Positions 35,634 to 43,486 of a stretch of DNA of 64,000 nucleotides are shown piece by piece (position 1 is the first letter of the stretch; each line of letters starts with the position of its first letter). Source of the DNA: Flavobacterium sp. K5-23 (GTDB lineage: Bacteria; Bacteroidota; Bacteroidia; Flavobacteriales; Flavobacteriaceae); assembly GCF_023278045.1 (NCBI RefSeq), contig NZ_CP056783.1, positions 2,265,501 to 2,329,500 of the forward strand, in the 5' to 3' direction. The notes under the pieces are model-generated. The model was not told where the DNA came from. It searched no databases and worked only from the letters and a program-made list of their open reading frames with translations. Position numbers and translations under genes: made by a program.

Positions 35634-35757
35634 GCCCAACAGCTGTTTTGAGCTAGCTGGAGTTTAGTGGAATTACCGTTCCGCATCAAGTTTTCGTTAA
35701 GCCGAAAACTGAAAGGTTACGAATTTCCAGCCATCTCAAAATGGCGAAACGTTAGTG
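35634..35757 (+). repeat. attC-like site 2
   Basis: 124-bp imperfect palindrome. The left end GCCCAAC (fits RYYYAAC) is complementary to the GTTGGGC that opens cassette 2. Outer arms: TTTTGAGCTAGCTGGA and TCCAGCCATCTCAAAA. An inner perfect 8-bp hairpin is AGTTTTCG/CGAAAACT. The right end AACGTTAGTG opens cassette 3. It shares most of its sequence with site 3. Confidence 0.7.
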
Positions 35758-36297: not shown

Positions 36298-36421
36298 CAC
36301 TAACAGCTGTTTTGATATAGCTGGAATTTAGTGGAATTACCTTTTCGCATCAAGTTTTCGTTAAACCGAAAACTGAACGGTTACTAACTTCCAGCAATCT
36401 CAAAGTGGCAAAACGTCAAAC
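36298..36421 (+). repeat. attC-like site 3
   Basis: 124-bp imperfect palindrome closely similar to site 2: left end CACTAAC (complement of the GTTAGTG opening cassette 3), arms AGCTGTTTTGATATAGCTGGA and TTCCAGCAATCTCAAAGTGGC, inner hairpin AGTTTTCG/CGAAAACT. The right end reads AACGTCAAAC instead of AACGTT, and no matching left core follows the next gene, so this is probably the last site of the array. Confidence 0.7.
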
Positions 36422-37587: not shown

Positions 37588-37715
37588 CTATAATTTTTAT
37601 AGTACTCCAATTTCCAGCATACAAGCCTTCATCATTTCGTATGTTCTTTCGATATTGTTGTCTAAACCTATAGAGAAACGAATTAATCCATCAGTTAATC
37701 CCATTTCTACTTGTT
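37588..37715 (-). pseudogene. Duplicated 3' end of the PLP-enzyme gene, copy A
   Basis: 128 bp identical to 42278-42405, same orientation. It contains the last ~39 codons and the stop (37597-37599) of the gene at 42287-43486, then diverges after ...CTACTTGTT. It has no start or promoter, so it is a dead copy. With the intact copy it brackets the four-gene light-sensing operon. Confidence 0.95.
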
Positions 37716-37992: not shown

Positions 37993-39312
37993 ATGGAAGA
38001 AGTAGTAAACACAACGTATAGTTCATTACAAAATATTTTTTTATTTGATGTTTCAAAAGAAGAGCAATGTAAATTTGATATTTATTTTGCATTAGAATTA
38101 TTGCAAACAAAAGACAAAGTATTAATTACAGTTGGAAGTCTGTGGATTGAATCTATTTTTCAAGCTCTTAATTTTGATAAAAATGTGCATTCCTCTTTAT
38201 TTTTGAATTTAGAACTAAACTTAAAAGTAACACATCCAGATCTTGCAAAACTTGCAGTCTTAGCCGCAAATGTTACGGTATTATCCGTTGGGGAGTATAT
38301 AAATAGAGAAGAGACTCTTATAAATAATATTACGAATTGGCATATTAAGTTGTTTTCTAAAATTGATAAAAGTGCGATTCCTCAGTATTTAAATAGCATG
38401 AAAAATGACGGACAGAAACATATTGATTTTATATATGAATCTAAAGAAAATGAAAGCTTAGAAATATTTGTAGCATATTGTAGTTGGGTTAATTCAGTGC
38501 TTTCTTCGTTAAAAGTCGAAACAATTAGCTTAGTTAGATTTTTAAATACCATTAAAATTTTTATGAATATTCAATTAATAGAAGAACCTTTTGTTTATGA
38601 TATTTTTATTAATGAGGGGATAAGTTCTCTATTAAAACAAAAAAATAATGATATTTTGATGAATGATTTTACTGAGCCAATACATAGTGAATATTTGAAA
38701 TTACTTCTAAAAGGAGAACGACAAAAAGCGGGTATTTTGATTCATAAATTATTAGATGATGGAATGGATATTAAAACTATTTATTTGAAAATTTTTCAAG
38801 AATCTCAATACGAAATAGGGCGGCTTTGGGAAAAAAACGAAATTTCGGTTGCACAAGAACATTATTGTACAGCGACAACCCAAATGATTATGTCTCAATT
38901 ATATCCTAAAATCTTTAAAGAGAATAGTCTAAATAAAAATATTGTTGCGACATGTGTAGGTGACGAATTACACGAAATTGGAGTGAGAATTGTTGCAGAT
39001 TTCTTAGAAATGGAAGGCTGGAATACATACTATTTAGGCGCAAACACACCGATTATTGCTATTATAGAAGCTATTGAAGAATATAAGGTTGATATCCTTG
39101 CGATTTCGGTAACGATGGTTCCACATGTTAAAAATGCCAAAGAATTAATCCAGGAAATAAGAGAAAAATCATCACGAGAAGTAAAAATTTTAGTTGGTGG
39201 ATATCCTTTTCATATTGATGAAAATTTATGGATAAAAATAGGTGCTGATGGATTTTCAAAATCAGCGATTGATGTTCATAATACAGCAATTAAATTATTA
39301 AAAGCTATTTAA
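37993..39312 (+). CDS. Cobalamin-binding sensor protein with CarH-like photoreceptor signature
   Basis: 439 residues, soluble. Residues ~230-305 form a B12-binding helical cap and ~313-435 a Rossmann-type B12 domain with the lower-ligand motif ELHEIG (His327) and LGANTP. The cap carries Trp279-x9-Glu289-His290 (LWEKNEISVAQEH), the upper-face signature of CarH-type adenosylcobalamin light sensors. Unlike CarH/LitR there is no MerR DNA-binding domain; the first ~225 residues are a helical/mixed region that I do not recognise. Its TAA overlaps the ATG of the kinase gene (TAATG), so it probably signals through that kinase. Confidence 0.88.
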   Translation: MEEVVNTTYSSLQNIFLFDVSKEEQCKFDIYFALELLQTKDKVLITVGSLWIESIFQALNFDKNVHSSLFLNLELNLKVTHPDLAKLAVLAANVTVLSVGEYINREETLINNITNWHIKLFSKIDKSAIPQYLNSMKNDGQKHIDFIYESKENESLEIFVAYCSWVNSVLSSLKVETISLVRFLNTIKIFMNIQLIEEPFVYDIFINEGISSLLKQKNNDILMNDFTEPIHSEYLKLLLKGERQKAGILIHKLLDDGMDIKTIYLKIFQESQYEIGRLWEKNEISVAQEHYCTATTQMIMSQLYPKIFKENSLNKNIVATCVGDELHEIGVRIVADFLEMEGWNTYYLGANTPIIAIIEAIEEYKVDILAISVTMVPHVKNAKELIQEIREKSSREVKILVGGYPFHIDENLWIKIGADGFSKSAIDVHNTAIKLLKAI

Positions 39313-40946
39313 TGAAAAACGGATTTTCTACATATTGTACACAATACGGCGTAATAAAAGAAATCATTCATGATGGTGTTGGTATTTTAGTTCTAGACAA
39401 ATCTTTTTTGACTTTAGTAGAGAAATCAAGCATGGGCAAATTTTTTTCCTTTTTAAAAGAATTAAATGATAAAAGAAGTGCTATTGGATGGGAAGTTAAT
39501 TTTGAATTTATAAACAACGAGTATCACACCTATTATATAGCAGGGATAAAAAATGATAATGATACCCTAACTATTATAGGTTCTACAGAAAATAGGAGTA
39601 CACGTAAATTTTACGAGGACTTAATGTTGATAAATAATGAACAAGCAAATAACATTCGTTTGTTATTAAAAAATGATAATAAAAAAGACCAATCAATAAA
39701 AAAGACCAATAAATCATTTGATGAGTTGACAAAGTTAAATAATGAGATGGCAAATCTTCAAAGGGAACTCATCAGAAAAAATAACTTATTAGATACAGCT
39801 AATAGCAAACTGGAAGAATTAGATATTTTGAAAAATAATTTTTTAGGAATGGCAGCTCATGATCTTAGAAATCCACTTTCTTTTATTCAAAATTATAGTG
39901 AGATTCTTCTGAATGAATCAAGTACAATAAAAGAAGGTGAAAAGGAACAGATATTGACAGATATTCATAAATCAAGTTTAATGATGTTGAGTATTGTAAA
40001 TGATTTTTTGGATGTAAGTAAAATTGAATCTGGTAAATTAGATTTAAATATATCAAAGGTTGATTTAATTGAGATTATAAAAGCAAGTATTGAATCTAAT
40101 AATTTTATTGCTTTAAAGAAGGAGATAAAATTAGATTTTCATAGTGTTATGAAATCTTTTATTATTGATGTAGATTCTAATAAAATTCTTCAAATATTGA
40201 ATAATTTAATTTCAAATGCTATAAAATATTCACATTCTATTACTAATGTTGATATAAATTGTATTATGAATGAGAATGAAATATTAATTGAAGTTATTGA
40301 CCAGGGCCAAGGTATTCCTTCGTCTGAATTAAAAAACATATTTAATGCCTTTACTATTACAAGTGTAAAGTCGACGGCTAATGAGAAAAGTACGGGGTTA
40401 GGATTGTCAATAGTAGAAAAAATTGTTAAGGCGCATGGAGGTGAATGTGGGGTAAAAAGTGAAGTTGGAGTTGGATCTGTATTTTGGTTTACAATTCCTT
40501 TTAAAGATGAGCAGCTTAATAATAATACGGTAATTGAAAAAGTTTACGAAGGAAATAGTTACGATTGTTTAAATGGAAAAGTAGTTTTAATTGTTGATGA
40601 TGATAATTTAATGAGAAAATTGGAAGAAAGAATTTTCTTGAATCAAAATTGTGAGGTGCTTATTGCTTGCAATGGACTTGAAGCTATTGAAATTATTAAT
40701 AAAAGAGATAAAATAGATTTTATATTAATGGACTATTTAATGCCTATTATGAATGGTATAGAAGCTACTCTTGAAATTAGAAAAAAATATTCTCAATATG
40801 AATTACCTATATTTGGATTAACCGGTTTGTCAGAAGTTGAAGTAAAAAATGAATTGATAGCAGCAGGAATGAATGACGTGCTTGTTAAACCTATTAAAAA
40901 AGATCAAATAATTGAATCACTTCTTAAATTAGTTTTAAATGGATAA
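39312..40946 (+). CDS. Hybrid histidine kinase with C-terminal receiver
   Basis: 544 residues, no membrane segment. An N-terminal ~100-residue PAS-like domain without recognisable cofactor residues is followed by a coiled coil (about 130-172), HisKA (GMAAHDLRNPLSFI, His183), HATPase (N302, DQGQGI at 330-335, STGLGLSI) and a receiver (acidic D429-D431, Asp474, Lys526). There is no phytochrome GAF/PHY pair and no bilin-binding Cys motif that I can see, so bilin would have to act elsewhere. It is translationally coupled to the B12 protein (1-nt overlap) and overlaps the reductase gene by 8 nt. Confidence 0.9.
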   Translation: MKNGFSTYCTQYGVIKEIIHDGVGILVLDKSFLTLVEKSSMGKFFSFLKELNDKRSAIGWEVNFEFINNEYHTYYIAGIKNDNDTLTIIGSTENRSTRKFYEDLMLINNEQANNIRLLLKNDNKKDQSIKKTNKSFDELTKLNNEMANLQRELIRKNNLLDTANSKLEELDILKNNFLGMAAHDLRNPLSFIQNYSEILLNESSTIKEGEKEQILTDIHKSSLMMLSIVNDFLDVSKIESGKLDLNISKVDLIEIIKASIESNNFIALKKEIKLDFHSVMKSFIIDVDSNKILQILNNLISNAIKYSHSITNVDINCIMNENEILIEVIDQGQGIPSSELKNIFNAFTITSVKSTANEKSTGLGLSIVEKIVKAHGGECGVKSEVGVGSVFWFTIPFKDEQLNNNTVIEKVYEGNSYDCLNGKVVLIVDDDNLMRKLEERIFLNQNCEVLIACNGLEAIEIINKRDKIDFILMDYLMPIMNGIEATLEIRKKYSQYELPIFGLTGLSEVEVKNELIAAGMNDVLVKPIKKDQIIESLLKLVLNG

Positions 40947-41634
40947 ATTTTTAGAATGGACAAAAGAGGAAGTTTTAAAAGAATTATCAAGCTTTAATTT
41001 GGAAATTGAAACTTGGCCAGTGGATTTTCAAAGGAAAATTTTGGGTAGTAATTCAAAGCCTCTTTTATTAGAAGGTTGTGGTTATATTGATGAGCTAAAA
41101 AAAATTAATATTAAGTACACATCCATTTACGGTAGTAATTTAGGAATAACGACACTTATTATCTACCCTATTAATGACACGATTAACTTACCCATATTTG
41201 CTGTTGAATGGGTAGTAATTGCTGAAAAAATACATCTGTTGGTTTTAGATGTTGTTTATGTTGAAAACGCAAAAAAAAATATTTCGAATCAATTTAGAAA
41301 GTTACAAGAGGAAAAGTTAAAGATTTTTCCTCTTAACAAAGAAATTCCGGATTGGTATATTGATATAATGGGGCCACATACTATTTATGGAAATTCAACC
41401 AAAGATAAACTAGGTGAAATGAAAAAAATGTTTAAAGAATACTTAAAGTTATATGGCGATGAATTGAACTTAAAATATAAAAATATCTCTTCAGGGCCGG
41501 AACATGAAAAGATAAAAAAATATAAAATTCACCATTATTTAAATTCACCGGCTAAAAGAATTTTGACAACTGACACTCTGTGGGTTGATGATTATTTAAA
41601 ATTATATCACTTTGGACCTGCATATATAATTTAA
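40939..41634 (+). CDS. Ferredoxin-dependent bilin reductase-like protein
   Basis: 231 residues, close to the usual 230-260 of PcyA/PebA/PebB/HY2 enzymes, which reduce biliverdin to phytobilins with electrons from ferredoxin. Similar wording is seen in the central sheet (LPIFAVEWVVIAEKIHLLVLDVVYV, 84-108), the strand near GPHTIY (145-150) and the C-terminal helix region (YLNSPAKRILTTDTLWVDDYLKLYHFGPAYI). Glu90 stands where many family members have Asp or Glu; I cannot assign the regiospecificity. The gene lies directly before a heme oxygenase (2-nt gap), the enzyme that makes its presumed substrate, which strongly supports the call. Confidence 0.78.
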   Translation: MDKFLEWTKEEVLKELSSFNLEIETWPVDFQRKILGSNSKPLLLEGCGYIDELKKINIKYTSIYGSNLGITTLIIYPINDTINLPIFAVEWVVIAEKIHLLVLDVVYVENAKKNISNQFRKLQEEKLKIFPLNKEIPDWYIDIMGPHTIYGNSTKDKLGEMKKMFKEYLKLYGDELNLKYKNISSGPEHEKIKKYKIHHYLNSPAKRILTTDTLWVDDYLKLYHFGPAYII

Positions 41635-41636
41635 TT

Positions 41637-42188
41637 ATGATACACGAAAAATTAAAAAAAGAAACAACCTTACTACATCGTAATGTTGAACGTAATTCGA
41701 TGTTAAAAAGAGTAATGGATCCAAATTTAACGGTAGATTATTATTCCATAATTATAGAAAAATTTTATCATTTTCATCAAGAAATTGAAACTCAATTAGT
41801 GAAATTTAATAATCAGCATAAACTTATAACCGACTTAGATAACCGACTTAAATGTGATTTTCTTGAAGCTGATATTGTAGAATTAAATATTGTTAAAACT
41901 AATTTACCTAAAAGATATATAGAAATAAATACGGCCGAAGATTTTTTTGGTGTATTGTATGTAATCGAAGGCTCTACATTAGGAGGACAATATATTATTC
42001 CAAAATTAAATGTATCACTGCCAGAATTAAAGCATTCATACTATAATGGATTTGGGGATGAAACTAGAAATTTATGGCTAACATTTATTAATCAATTGAC
42101 ATCTACACAAGACGCCCTTAATCATGAAGAAGTTGTAAAAAGTGCAAATTTGACCTTTTCAACCTTAATTGAATTGTTTAAAGAATAA
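41637..42188 (+). CDS. Biliverdin-producing heme oxygenase (BphO type)
   Basis: 183 residues. The proximal heme ligand is His14 in the N-terminal helix (TTLLHRNVE), and the distal-helix signature is YVIEGSTLGGQYI (108-120), typical of bacterial BphO proteins associated with phytochromes. It opens heme to biliverdin, CO and iron. It is the last gene of the operon, 2 nt after the bilin-reductase-like gene, and is followed by a strong terminator. Use in bilin synthesis rather than iron scavenging is inferred from the neighbour. Confidence 0.92.
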   Translation: MIHEKLKKETTLLHRNVERNSMLKRVMDPNLTVDYYSIIIEKFYHFHQEIETQLVKFNNQHKLITDLDNRLKCDFLEADIVELNIVKTNLPKRYIEINTAEDFFGVLYVIEGSTLGGQYIIPKLNVSLPELKHSYYNGFGDETRNLWLTFINQLTSTQDALNHEEVVKSANLTFSTLIELFKE

Positions 42189-42230: not shown

Positions 42231-42268
42231 AAAAAATCCGTTTAAGAGAAATCTTAAACGGATTTTTT
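42231..42268. terminator. Strong bidirectional terminator
   Basis: A 17-bp perfect stem (AAAAAATCCGTTTAAGA / TCTTAAACGGATTTTTT) with a GAAA loop sits between the converging heme oxygenase and PLP-enzyme genes and can serve both. It lies inside the inserted block, ten bp before duplicate copy B. Confidence 0.92.
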
Positions 42269-42286
42269 CAAATTAACCTATAATTT

Positions 42287-43486
42287 TTATAGTACTCCAA
42301 TTTCCAGCATACAAGCCTTCATCATTTCGTATGTTCTTTCGATATTGTTGTCTAAACCTATAGAGAAACGAATTAATCCATCAGTTAATCCCATTTCTAC
42401 TTGTTCTTCCATAGGAATTTCGCTTGAAGTTGAACTTCCCGGAGCACTAAACAAAGTCTTGTAGAAACCTAAGCTTACCGCTAAGTAACCCAAATTACGT
42501 TTTTGCATCAATTCCATTAATTCATTGGCTTTCGCTAAAGAACCTGCATCGACAGTCATCATACCTCCAAAACCATATTCTGGATTTATCATTGAAGCAT
42601 ATAATTTATGACTTGGATGACTTGCTAAACCTGGGTAAACTGTTTTTAGTCCGTCCTTTTCAAAACGCTCTGCTAGATAAGCAGCATTATAACTGTGTTG
42701 TTTGATTCTAAGGTGTAGCGTACGTAAATTTTTCATCACACTTGCTGAACGCATACTGTCCATCGTAGGTCCTAATAACATACTGGCACCACTATTTACA
42801 TTTTTCAAGTCATTGATAAATTCTTGTGACGCACAAGTTACACCACCTACAGTATCACTACTTCCGTTGATGTATTTTGTTAAACTATGAATCACGATAT
42901 CAGCTCCCAATTTTATTGGAGTAACTGATAACGGTGAGAATGTATTATCAACAACCAATTTCAGATTGTGTTTTTTTGCTATTTTAGATAGACCAGCAAT
43001 ATCAGCCACTTCAAGCAATGGATTACTTACTGTTTCACAGTATAGCACTTTTGTGTCAGCCGTGATAGCAGCTTCCACTACGTCAAGTTTTGTGATGTCT
43101 ACAAAAGTTGTTTTTACACCTAATCTTGGTGCAAAATTTTTCAAGAAAGCATATGTTCCGCCGTAGATCGTTCTACTGGAAACAATATGATCACCTGCAC
43201 CACACAATTGTAGTAATGTAGGTGTGATAGCTCCCATACCAGATGCTGATACATTAGCAGTTTCTGTTCCTTCCATAGCAGCAAGTGCTTGGTCTAAATA
43301 TAAATTACTAGGAGAGGAGTGACGAGAATACAAGTAACAACCTTCCATATTTCCTTCAAAGGTATCAAACATCGTTTTTGCCGAAAGGAAAGTATAAGTT
43401 GATGAGTCTGAAATAGATGGGTTTACACCACCAAATTCACCAAAATACTGTAAGTCTTGAATATTGTCTGCGGGATTGAATTTCAT
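42287..43486 (-). CDS. Cys/Met-metabolism PLP enzyme (methionine gamma-lyase-like)
   Basis: 399 residues, full length for the family. The PLP-binding lysine is Lys204 in HSLTKYINGSSDTVGG; other family motifs are YSRHSSPS (53-60), ASGMGAI and VDNTFSPL (179-186). Such enzymes act on homocysteine, methionine or O-acyl-homoserine. At the position of the methionine gamma-lyase active-site cysteine (YGCT) this protein has glycine (YGGT, 108-111), as in sulfhydrylases and cystathionine enzymes, so a lyase label is uncertain. It is divergent from an Lrp-type regulator. Its 3' end exists a second time at 37588-37715. Confidence 0.88.
   Translation of the reverse strand: MKFNPADNIQDLQYFGEFGGVNPSISDSSTYTFLSAKTMFDTFEGNMEGCYLYSRHSSPSNLYLDQALAAMEGTETANVSASGMGAITPTLLQLCGAGDHIVSSRTIYGGTYAFLKNFAPRLGVKTTFVDITKLDVVEAAITADTKVLYCETVSNPLLEVADIAGLSKIAKKHNLKLVVDNTFSPLSVTPIKLGADIVIHSLTKYINGSSDTVGGVTCASQEFINDLKNVNSGASMLLGPTMDSMRSASVMKNLRTLHLRIKQHSYNAAYLAERFEKDGLKTVYPGLASHPSHKLYASMINPEYGFGGMMTVDAGSLAKANELMELMQKRNLGYLAVSLGFYKTLFSAPGSSTSSEIPMEEQVEMGLTDGLIRFSIGLDNNIERTYEMMKACMLEIGVL

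Follow-up and report, generated by a model that had tools for sequence, protein, structure and literature searches.

A four-gene operon of Flavobacterium sp. K5-23, a non-photosynthetic bacterium, probably encodes a self-sufficient photocobilin two-component system, in which a sensor of the B12- and bilin-binding class, its kinase and the enzymes for its pigment would be supplied together. The operon was analyzed within a window of 64,000 nt from contig NZ_CP056783.1 (genome size 3.49 Mb) and consists of four complete open reading frames (ORFs), all on the + strand at 37993-42188 in the ORF list of the window. These correspond to a photocobilin-type protein of 439 amino acids (aa) (37993..39312), a hybrid histidine kinase of 544 aa (39312..40946), a divergent ferredoxin-dependent bilin reductase (FDBR) of 231 aa (40939..41634) and a heme oxygenase of 183 aa (41637..42188). 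Genes 1 and 2 overlap by 1 nt, genes 2 and 3 overlap by 8 nt, and genes 3 and 4 are separated by 2 nt; all four proteins exceed the curated Pfam cut-offs for their named families. A first-pass annotation of this DNA had already described a B12 light-sensor candidate, a hybrid kinase, a bilin reductase-like protein and a heme oxygenase in one operon, with genes overlapping or within 2 nt of each other. These operon parts all hold, although that annotation overlooked the globin domain of the first protein, the putative role of the kinase N-terminus as its partner and the direct repeats that flank the operon.

Several observations argue for a self-sufficient photocobilin system. The first protein carries B12 and globin domains with residues that contact adenosylcobalamin (AdoCbl) and biliverdin in the photocobilin SasPcob, and the N-terminal domain of the kinase is found recurrently beside photocobilins. 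A photocobilin, an FDBR, a heme oxygenase and this partner domain also occur together in three other loci (L001, L004 and L005). Moreover, the host has a gene for cobalamin adenosyltransferase, no phytochrome was found that might compete for the bilin, and the genome's sole heme oxygenase lies inside the operon. Sensor, pigment enzymes and kinase are contained together in one 4.2-kb operon.

The first gene encodes a predicted photocobilin

Two Pfam families, B12-binding_2 (58.5 bits, cut-off 23) and B12-binding (82.3 bits, cut-off 32.1), identify a four-helix bundle and Rossmann domain in the C-terminal part of the 439-aa protein, which together resemble the B12 domain of CarH (residues 233-419; binding region 38689..39249). 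The closest matches in the PDB were to SasPcob (8J2X and 8J2W, E 1.7e-22, residues 232-419). As the first-pass annotation had noted, the CarH upper-face residues are kept, in the form W279-x9-E289-H290; the lower ligand is H327 within E325-L-H327, and the region also contains a GANTP motif. The protein therefore has both the W-x-EH and the E/DxH motifs by which photocobilin B12 domains are recognized.

The preceding part of the protein was assigned through its relatives, of which a protein search that scored 8000 candidates found 3618 at E<=1e-5, with 120 listed. No Pfam family exceeds its cut-off before residue 230 (MetOD1 reaches 17.4 bits against a cut-off of 23.8), and the Phycobilisome family PF00502 itself does not reach the protein at E<=1. 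This family was found, however, at the N-terminus of P0028 and P0033, both of ~353 aa and two of the ten relatives scanned, and the matched part aligns to the globin stretch of the 439-aa protein. A hidden Markov model (HMM) made from six single-globin relatives, with the 439-aa protein left out, matches residues 104-216 (38302..38640; domain E 5.5e-11 when run against ~30 sequences). A seven-row globin profile (A5) that includes the 439-aa protein matches allophycocyanins (E 1.2e-5) and SasPcob 8J2W/8J2X (E 7.6e-5) in the PDB. A single numbering offset of 6 puts SasPcob His108, Asp270 and Trp296 on H327, D139 and W165, so that the equivalents of the biliverdin contacts are kept: D139 stands for Asp270 (36 of 38 rows have Asp here), and the invariant W165 for Trp296. 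AbPcob is reported to have His at the position of SasPcob Asp270, and the Asp is therefore not a strict requirement (PMC10979010). Because a phycobilisome-like globin is fused to a CarH-like B12 domain, with the key B12 and biliverdin contact residues, the 439-aa protein is predicted to be a photocobilin with its globin on the N-terminal side.

The N-terminal 103 residues (37993..38301) contain a CKFD motif and W51, and are possibly a decayed second globin copy (domain E 0.11, small database). Longer Bacteroidota relatives carry two or three globins, and the extra globins in relatives of ~530-550 aa score E 5e-12 to 8e-22, likewise in a small database. Up to three globins are present in P0005, P0009, P0010 and P0014 (~548 aa), the N-terminal one being weakly supported and bearing a phycobiliprotein-like CxRD that hints at a covalent bilin. 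Covalent attachment to Cys was considered as a general reason for the presence of an FDBR and rejected: the FDBR-linked photocobilins of L001, L004 and L005 lack the N-terminal Cys.

The kinase N-terminus recurs beside photocobilins as a putative partner domain

The second gene encodes a protein with HisKA (59.6 bits, cut-off 26.9), HATPase_c (85.8, cut-off 26.4) and Response_reg (83.2, cut-off 30.2) domains, whose motifs, including those of the receiver, are intact as in a hybrid histidine kinase (alignment A8). Its first ~165 residues (39312..39806) have no Pfam match. We built a profile from this N-terminus plus the corresponding sequences of L001, L004 and L005, and applied it at E<=1e-5. 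Of the 77 loci that had no part in building the profile, 53 have a match in a gene beside the photocobilin, downstream in every case. When all 80 loci are counted, including the three used for the profile, 50 of 56 matches lie within 300 nt of the photocobilin; mostly, the match covers profile positions 4 to ~160.

In a sample of 395 genomes from the phylum, the partner domain was present in 15 of 21 loci (L099-L119). It accompanied 14 of the 15 loci where the match to the 439-aa protein reaches into the globin, the remaining one (L118) having in-frame stops, and one of the six where only the B12 part is matched. A Pfam scan of nine proteins with the partner domain found HisKA and HATPase_c in seven, whereas those of L001 and L061 consist of the domain alone. 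The partner-domain proteins of L004, L005 and L046 are as short as these two, which suggests that all five represent an adaptor form. A HATPase_c gene is divergent from two of the kinase-less operons; its match is over the cut-off in L001 (7485-8882, - strand) and under it in L004 (7618-9030, - strand).

Its recurrence beside photocobilins (53 of 77 independent loci) marks out the kinase N-terminus as a dedicated partner, the putative contact domain of photocobilin-controlled kinases. The first-pass annotation had left two readings of the operon, that two light-sensing cofactors feed one kinase or that the bilin serves a phytochrome elsewhere. The two-cofactor reading is the better fit, because the first protein carries a globin of the bilin-binding type beside its B12 domain and its kinase is one of a family whose genes adjoin those of photocobilins.

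The third gene encodes a divergent member of the bilin reductase family

The 231-aa protein matches Fe_bilin_red (PF05996) with 40 bits (E 4.7e-10, cut-off 31) and PHROG 7278, 'ferredoxin oxidoreductase', at E 5.3e-9, and hhalign against phage PcyA/PcyX gave a probability of 95.9 (E 5.5e-9, 158 columns). Because these three profile comparisons agree, we assign it to a divergent lineage of the FDBR family, in keeping with the first-pass description of a bilin reductase-like protein. The distance to known members is large. Identity to seven phage PcyA/PcyX sequences is 15-21%, the best PDB match is a PcyA at E 0.06 only, and the single sequence, run by word matching against 5.8 billion proteins, found nothing but itself. 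A four-row profile collected six proteins at E<=0.01, the 231-aa protein included. Among the seven rows of this family, five match PF05996 at E<=1, and of four FDBRs scanned, that of L001 lacks a match to PHROG 7278.

At the active site, T72 takes the position of PcyA His88 and E90 that of Asp105, with no Glu at the position of Glu76 (alignment A7; PcyA numbering checked on 2D1E). All seven family rows share both T72 and E90 without exception. The protein is thus unlike PcyA, which has Glu76, His88 and Asp105, and unlike the pre-2 group of pre-PcyA enzymes, in which Asn replaces His88 and Asp105 is kept. As described in PMC10151467, pre-1 enzymes lack all three catalytic residues, pre-2 have Asn/Asp and pre-3 Thr/Asp at the positions of His88 and Asp105. 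By this alignment, the Thr/Glu lineage fits none of pre-1, pre-2 or pre-3. It is a rare lineage in Bacteroidota and bears on where phytobilin synthesis arose.

Heme oxygenase and the destination of the bilin

The fourth protein matches Heme_oxygenase (PF01126) with 59.2 bits against a cut-off of 23 and is the sole PF01126 match of the genome. H14 and EGSTLGG, which we take to be the heme ligand and the distal motif, align to H15 and EGSTMGA of the L004 heme oxygenase.

Pairs of heme oxygenase and FDBR usually supply phytochromes or phycobiliproteins, and the bilin made here might accordingly serve another protein of the cell, such as a phytochrome elsewhere in the genome. We consider this very improbable: a globin of the bilin-binding type is encoded in the same operon, and the phytochrome domains PHY and PAS_2 had no match in the window, as the first-pass annotation had it, nor in the whole genome, although the genome-search method missed the known FDBR with PF05996, so that these negatives are not absolute. 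PHY and PAS_2 each matched one of 14 control genomes. The rhodopsin search gave no match in any control genome and is therefore uninformative.

The host also encodes a cobalamin adenosyltransferase (PF01923, 213.6 bits). Two further host proteins match B12-binding_2. One lies in a 900-aa frame taken for MetH, and the other is a CarH-like protein of 300 aa with a MerR domain (G000:C1:1816195-1816395; L086:1207-2109), adjoined by a gene that by eye resembles one for a potassium channel.

Proposed mechanism and alternatives

In the proposed mechanism, the heme oxygenase would convert heme to biliverdin, and the FDBR may then form a phytobilin from it by reduction. Within the 439-aa protein, the globin would hold the bilin next to AdoCbl in the CarH-like domain, such that the Co-C bond could be broken by red or orange light via the bilin, or by green light via B12. 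Breakage of the bond would alter the shape or oligomeric state of the photocobilin. By touching the N-terminal partner domain, the photocobilin would thereby change autophosphorylation of the kinase and phosphotransfer, first to the kinase's receiver and from there to a regulator whose gene lies elsewhere. We tentatively propose, at less than even confidence, that the FDBR is the active founder of a new Thr/Glu lineage and that its reduced phytobilin, rather than biliverdin, is the antenna of the photocobilin. If so, the operon would provide a B12 photoreceptor that drives a kinase and whose range of colours is tuned by a phytobilin, in the form of a compact, self-sufficient cassette that moves between Bacteroidota.

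A number of points weigh against this system, in which chromophore binding and light response of the 439-aa protein are predictions from sequence. Two of them, the imperfect GxxH element of the published light-responsive signature and the rarity of PF01126 in other genomes with a related B12 protein, are detailed under the second alternative below. The FDBR lacks all three PcyA catalytic residues and may therefore be inactive. As for its electron donor, four Fer2 matches in the genome all lie in frames of 250-425 aa and none is a small ferredoxin, 4Fe-4S ferredoxins lying outside this search. The partner domain of L001, L004 and L005 is encoded on its own, as a short protein free of kinase domains (judged by Pfam on L001 only). 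Finally, when BBAG-2 globins were co-expressed with a pre-2 FDBR that was active and made phytochromobilin, they are reported to have bound biliverdin and not the reduced product, so linkage to an FDBR is no proof of phytobilin use (PMC10151467).

The last point also favors an alternative scheme, in which the sensor uses biliverdin alone and the FDBR, being an inactive relative, either carries bilin to the globin or loads it there, or else removes surplus biliverdin. The altered Glu76, His88 and Asp105 positions are in line with it, as is the ability of SasPcob to bind biliverdin without a Cys, given that the globin of the operon has Met at the Cys position. However, the invariance of T72 and E90 in seven of seven rows looks like that of a working site, and PMC10151467 describes pre-3 enzymes, with Thr for His88, as clearly active and pre-1 enzymes, with none of the three residues, as weakly active. 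On balance we regard a biliverdin-only sensor as rather unlikely.

A second scheme would make the B12 protein a sensor of redox or B12 status rather than light, with the heme oxygenase and FDBR acting in heme or iron metabolism. The SignatureFinder signature of light-responsive B12 proteins requires four elements, of which GxxW, EH and GxxxP are present in the 439-aa protein; GxxH is not matched letter for letter, as D324 replaces the G, which occurs in only two of 38 rows. In addition, a related B12 protein is encoded in 20 other genomes, and 19 of these have no PF01126 match, that in the one exception being partial (26 bits), and there is none in the 15 of these genomes whose match to the 439-aa protein reaches into the globin, PF01126 being the only heme-degrading family searched. 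Because of this, such proteins elsewhere may in many cases function bilin-free or draw on an enzyme of a different family. Nevertheless, the upper-face W/E/H residues and GxxxP are kept, and AdoCbl-binding proteins with these residues are described as light-responsive (PMC10979010, PMC11796333), which leaves a sensor of redox or B12 status improbable.

Comparison with known systems

The first-pass annotation regarded a combined cobalamin/bilin unit as new. This does not hold for the sensor class: photocobilins, which combine B12 and a bilin, were described in 2024, with both orders of globin and B12 domain (PMC10979010), and a 2023 study reported three-gene clusters, mostly from Myxococcales, that link a pre-2 FDBR to a bilin-binding globin and a B12-binding protein (PMC10151467). 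The photocobilin study is based on two purified proteins and, as far as its main text goes, leaves open the cellular source of the bilin and which kinases, if any, are driven; 'heme oxygenase', 'operon' and 'histidine kinase' do not occur in that main text, nor does any word starting with 'bacteroid' in that of PMC10151467.

Like SasPcob and AbDPcob, the operon protein has a B12 domain with W/EH and E/DxH motifs and a globin with equivalents of Asp270 and Trp296. It differs from them in its N-terminal globin and additional N-terminal stretch, and the operon adds a separate hybrid kinase partner, a heme oxygenase and an FDBR. The pre-2 FDBR/BBAG-2 cluster, as reported, likewise links an FDBR to a bilin-type globin and a B12-binding protein, in some cases together with a heme oxygenase, whereas the operon has a globin-B12 fusion, a kinase, a Thr/Glu site instead of Asn/Asp and a Bacteroidota host. 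The operon FDBR shares the family profile and an alignable layout with PcyA, PcyX and other FDBRs but keeps none of the three PcyA residues. With CarH the operon protein has in common the B12-binding fold and the adenosyl-contacting residues; in place of a DNA-binding domain it has a globin and a kinase partner. The four-gene unit with self-supplied pigment and an unusual reductase is not one that we found described in the open-licence literature. What is new is this self-supplying arrangement with its unusual reductase, the sensor class itself being known.

Distribution of the operon and its parts

Within the phylum sample, 21 of 395 genomes encode a relative of the 439-aa protein at E<=1e-40, and in 16 of them, the operon's own genome included, the match reaches the globin. 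The FDBR profile gave one match in this sample, to the operon's own protein. In a separate sample of 395 genomes from the order, only the operon's genome had a relative of the 439-aa protein at E<=1e-20. A PF05996 search of 397 genomes returned no match, also missing the operon's own known FDBR, and its result was discarded.

The first-pass annotation had proposed a search for the same gene order in other Bacteroidota. FDBR and heme oxygenase accompany the photocobilin in three of 80 genome_contigs loci (L001, L004 and L005), all metagenome-assembled genomes (MAGs) of Bacteroidota, of which L004 and L005 are near-copies of each other. All four elements are present there; the partner-domain protein comes first, followed by photocobilin, FDBR and heme oxygenase. 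The heme oxygenase frame of L001 (11815-12291) lacks the N-terminal part and scores 20.4 bits, below the cut-off of 23, and is either a broken gene or an assembly error. Beside other Bacteroidota photocobilins, neither FDBR nor heme oxygenase was among the matches listed (25 of 45 families; 41 small ORFs at 12 loci), so that a weak single match may lie among the other 20 families.

On the photocobilin tree, the FDBR-bearing members occupy two branches, that of the operon, itself a long branch, with P0007 and the rest together. The five FDBR-labelled photocobilins require four label changes, a number equalled or bettered in 79 of 500 shuffles; as the unlabelled rows mostly come with no gene context and include an exact duplicate of L005, this neither favors nor disfavors a single origin of the FDBR link. 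A phage origin of the operon was rejected: viral contigs contain no photocobilin relative, and in a phage collection the heme oxygenase matched two records at E 0.3 and the L004 FDBR four records at E 8. Among 72,556 plasmid records, 11 contain a relative of the photocobilin at E<=1e-20, but in no case does the match extend over 80% of the protein length.

Insertion into the genome and surrounding DNA

The operon sits between the two copies of a 128-nt perfect direct repeat. The right copy (42278..42405) is the 3' end of an intact gene for a Cys/Met-metabolism PLP enzyme (42287-43486, - strand), and the left copy (37588..37715) duplicates that end. In one relative (G1142, L088), with a PLP enzyme 94% identical, the match to a thioesterase-like gene ends at 1423 and that to the PLP-enzyme gene at 1501, indicating that the two genes are adjacent; this was seen in one of 11 relatives, the other ten showing no thioesterase gene in the flank. 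Since the operon is unique in the order sample and is flanked by these perfect repeats, it was probably acquired recently by insertion. No further ORF of >=60 aa is found in the insert, and it therefore contains no integrase. The GC content of the insert is 26.5% compared with 32.7% for the window, a weak sign of foreign origin, as a neighboring stretch is equally low.

A hairpin with a perfect 13-bp stem, flanked by runs of A and T, lies at 42235..42264, as read directly from the sequence, and is likely a two-way terminator between the operon and the PLP-enzyme gene; a terminator pattern scan reported none at this position. A cobalamin riboswitch was looked for and was not among the matches. 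Promoter-like elements are no more frequent in the window than expected, with 96 matches to the Bacteroidetes-type -7 element against 107.6 expected and 32 sigma-70-like sites against 34.4, and are thus uninformative. The scanned neighbors of the operon are ordinary genes of metabolism, transport and maturation. A second direct repeat, of 115 nt and 90% identity, is located upstream of the operon at 35638-35752 and 36302-36416.

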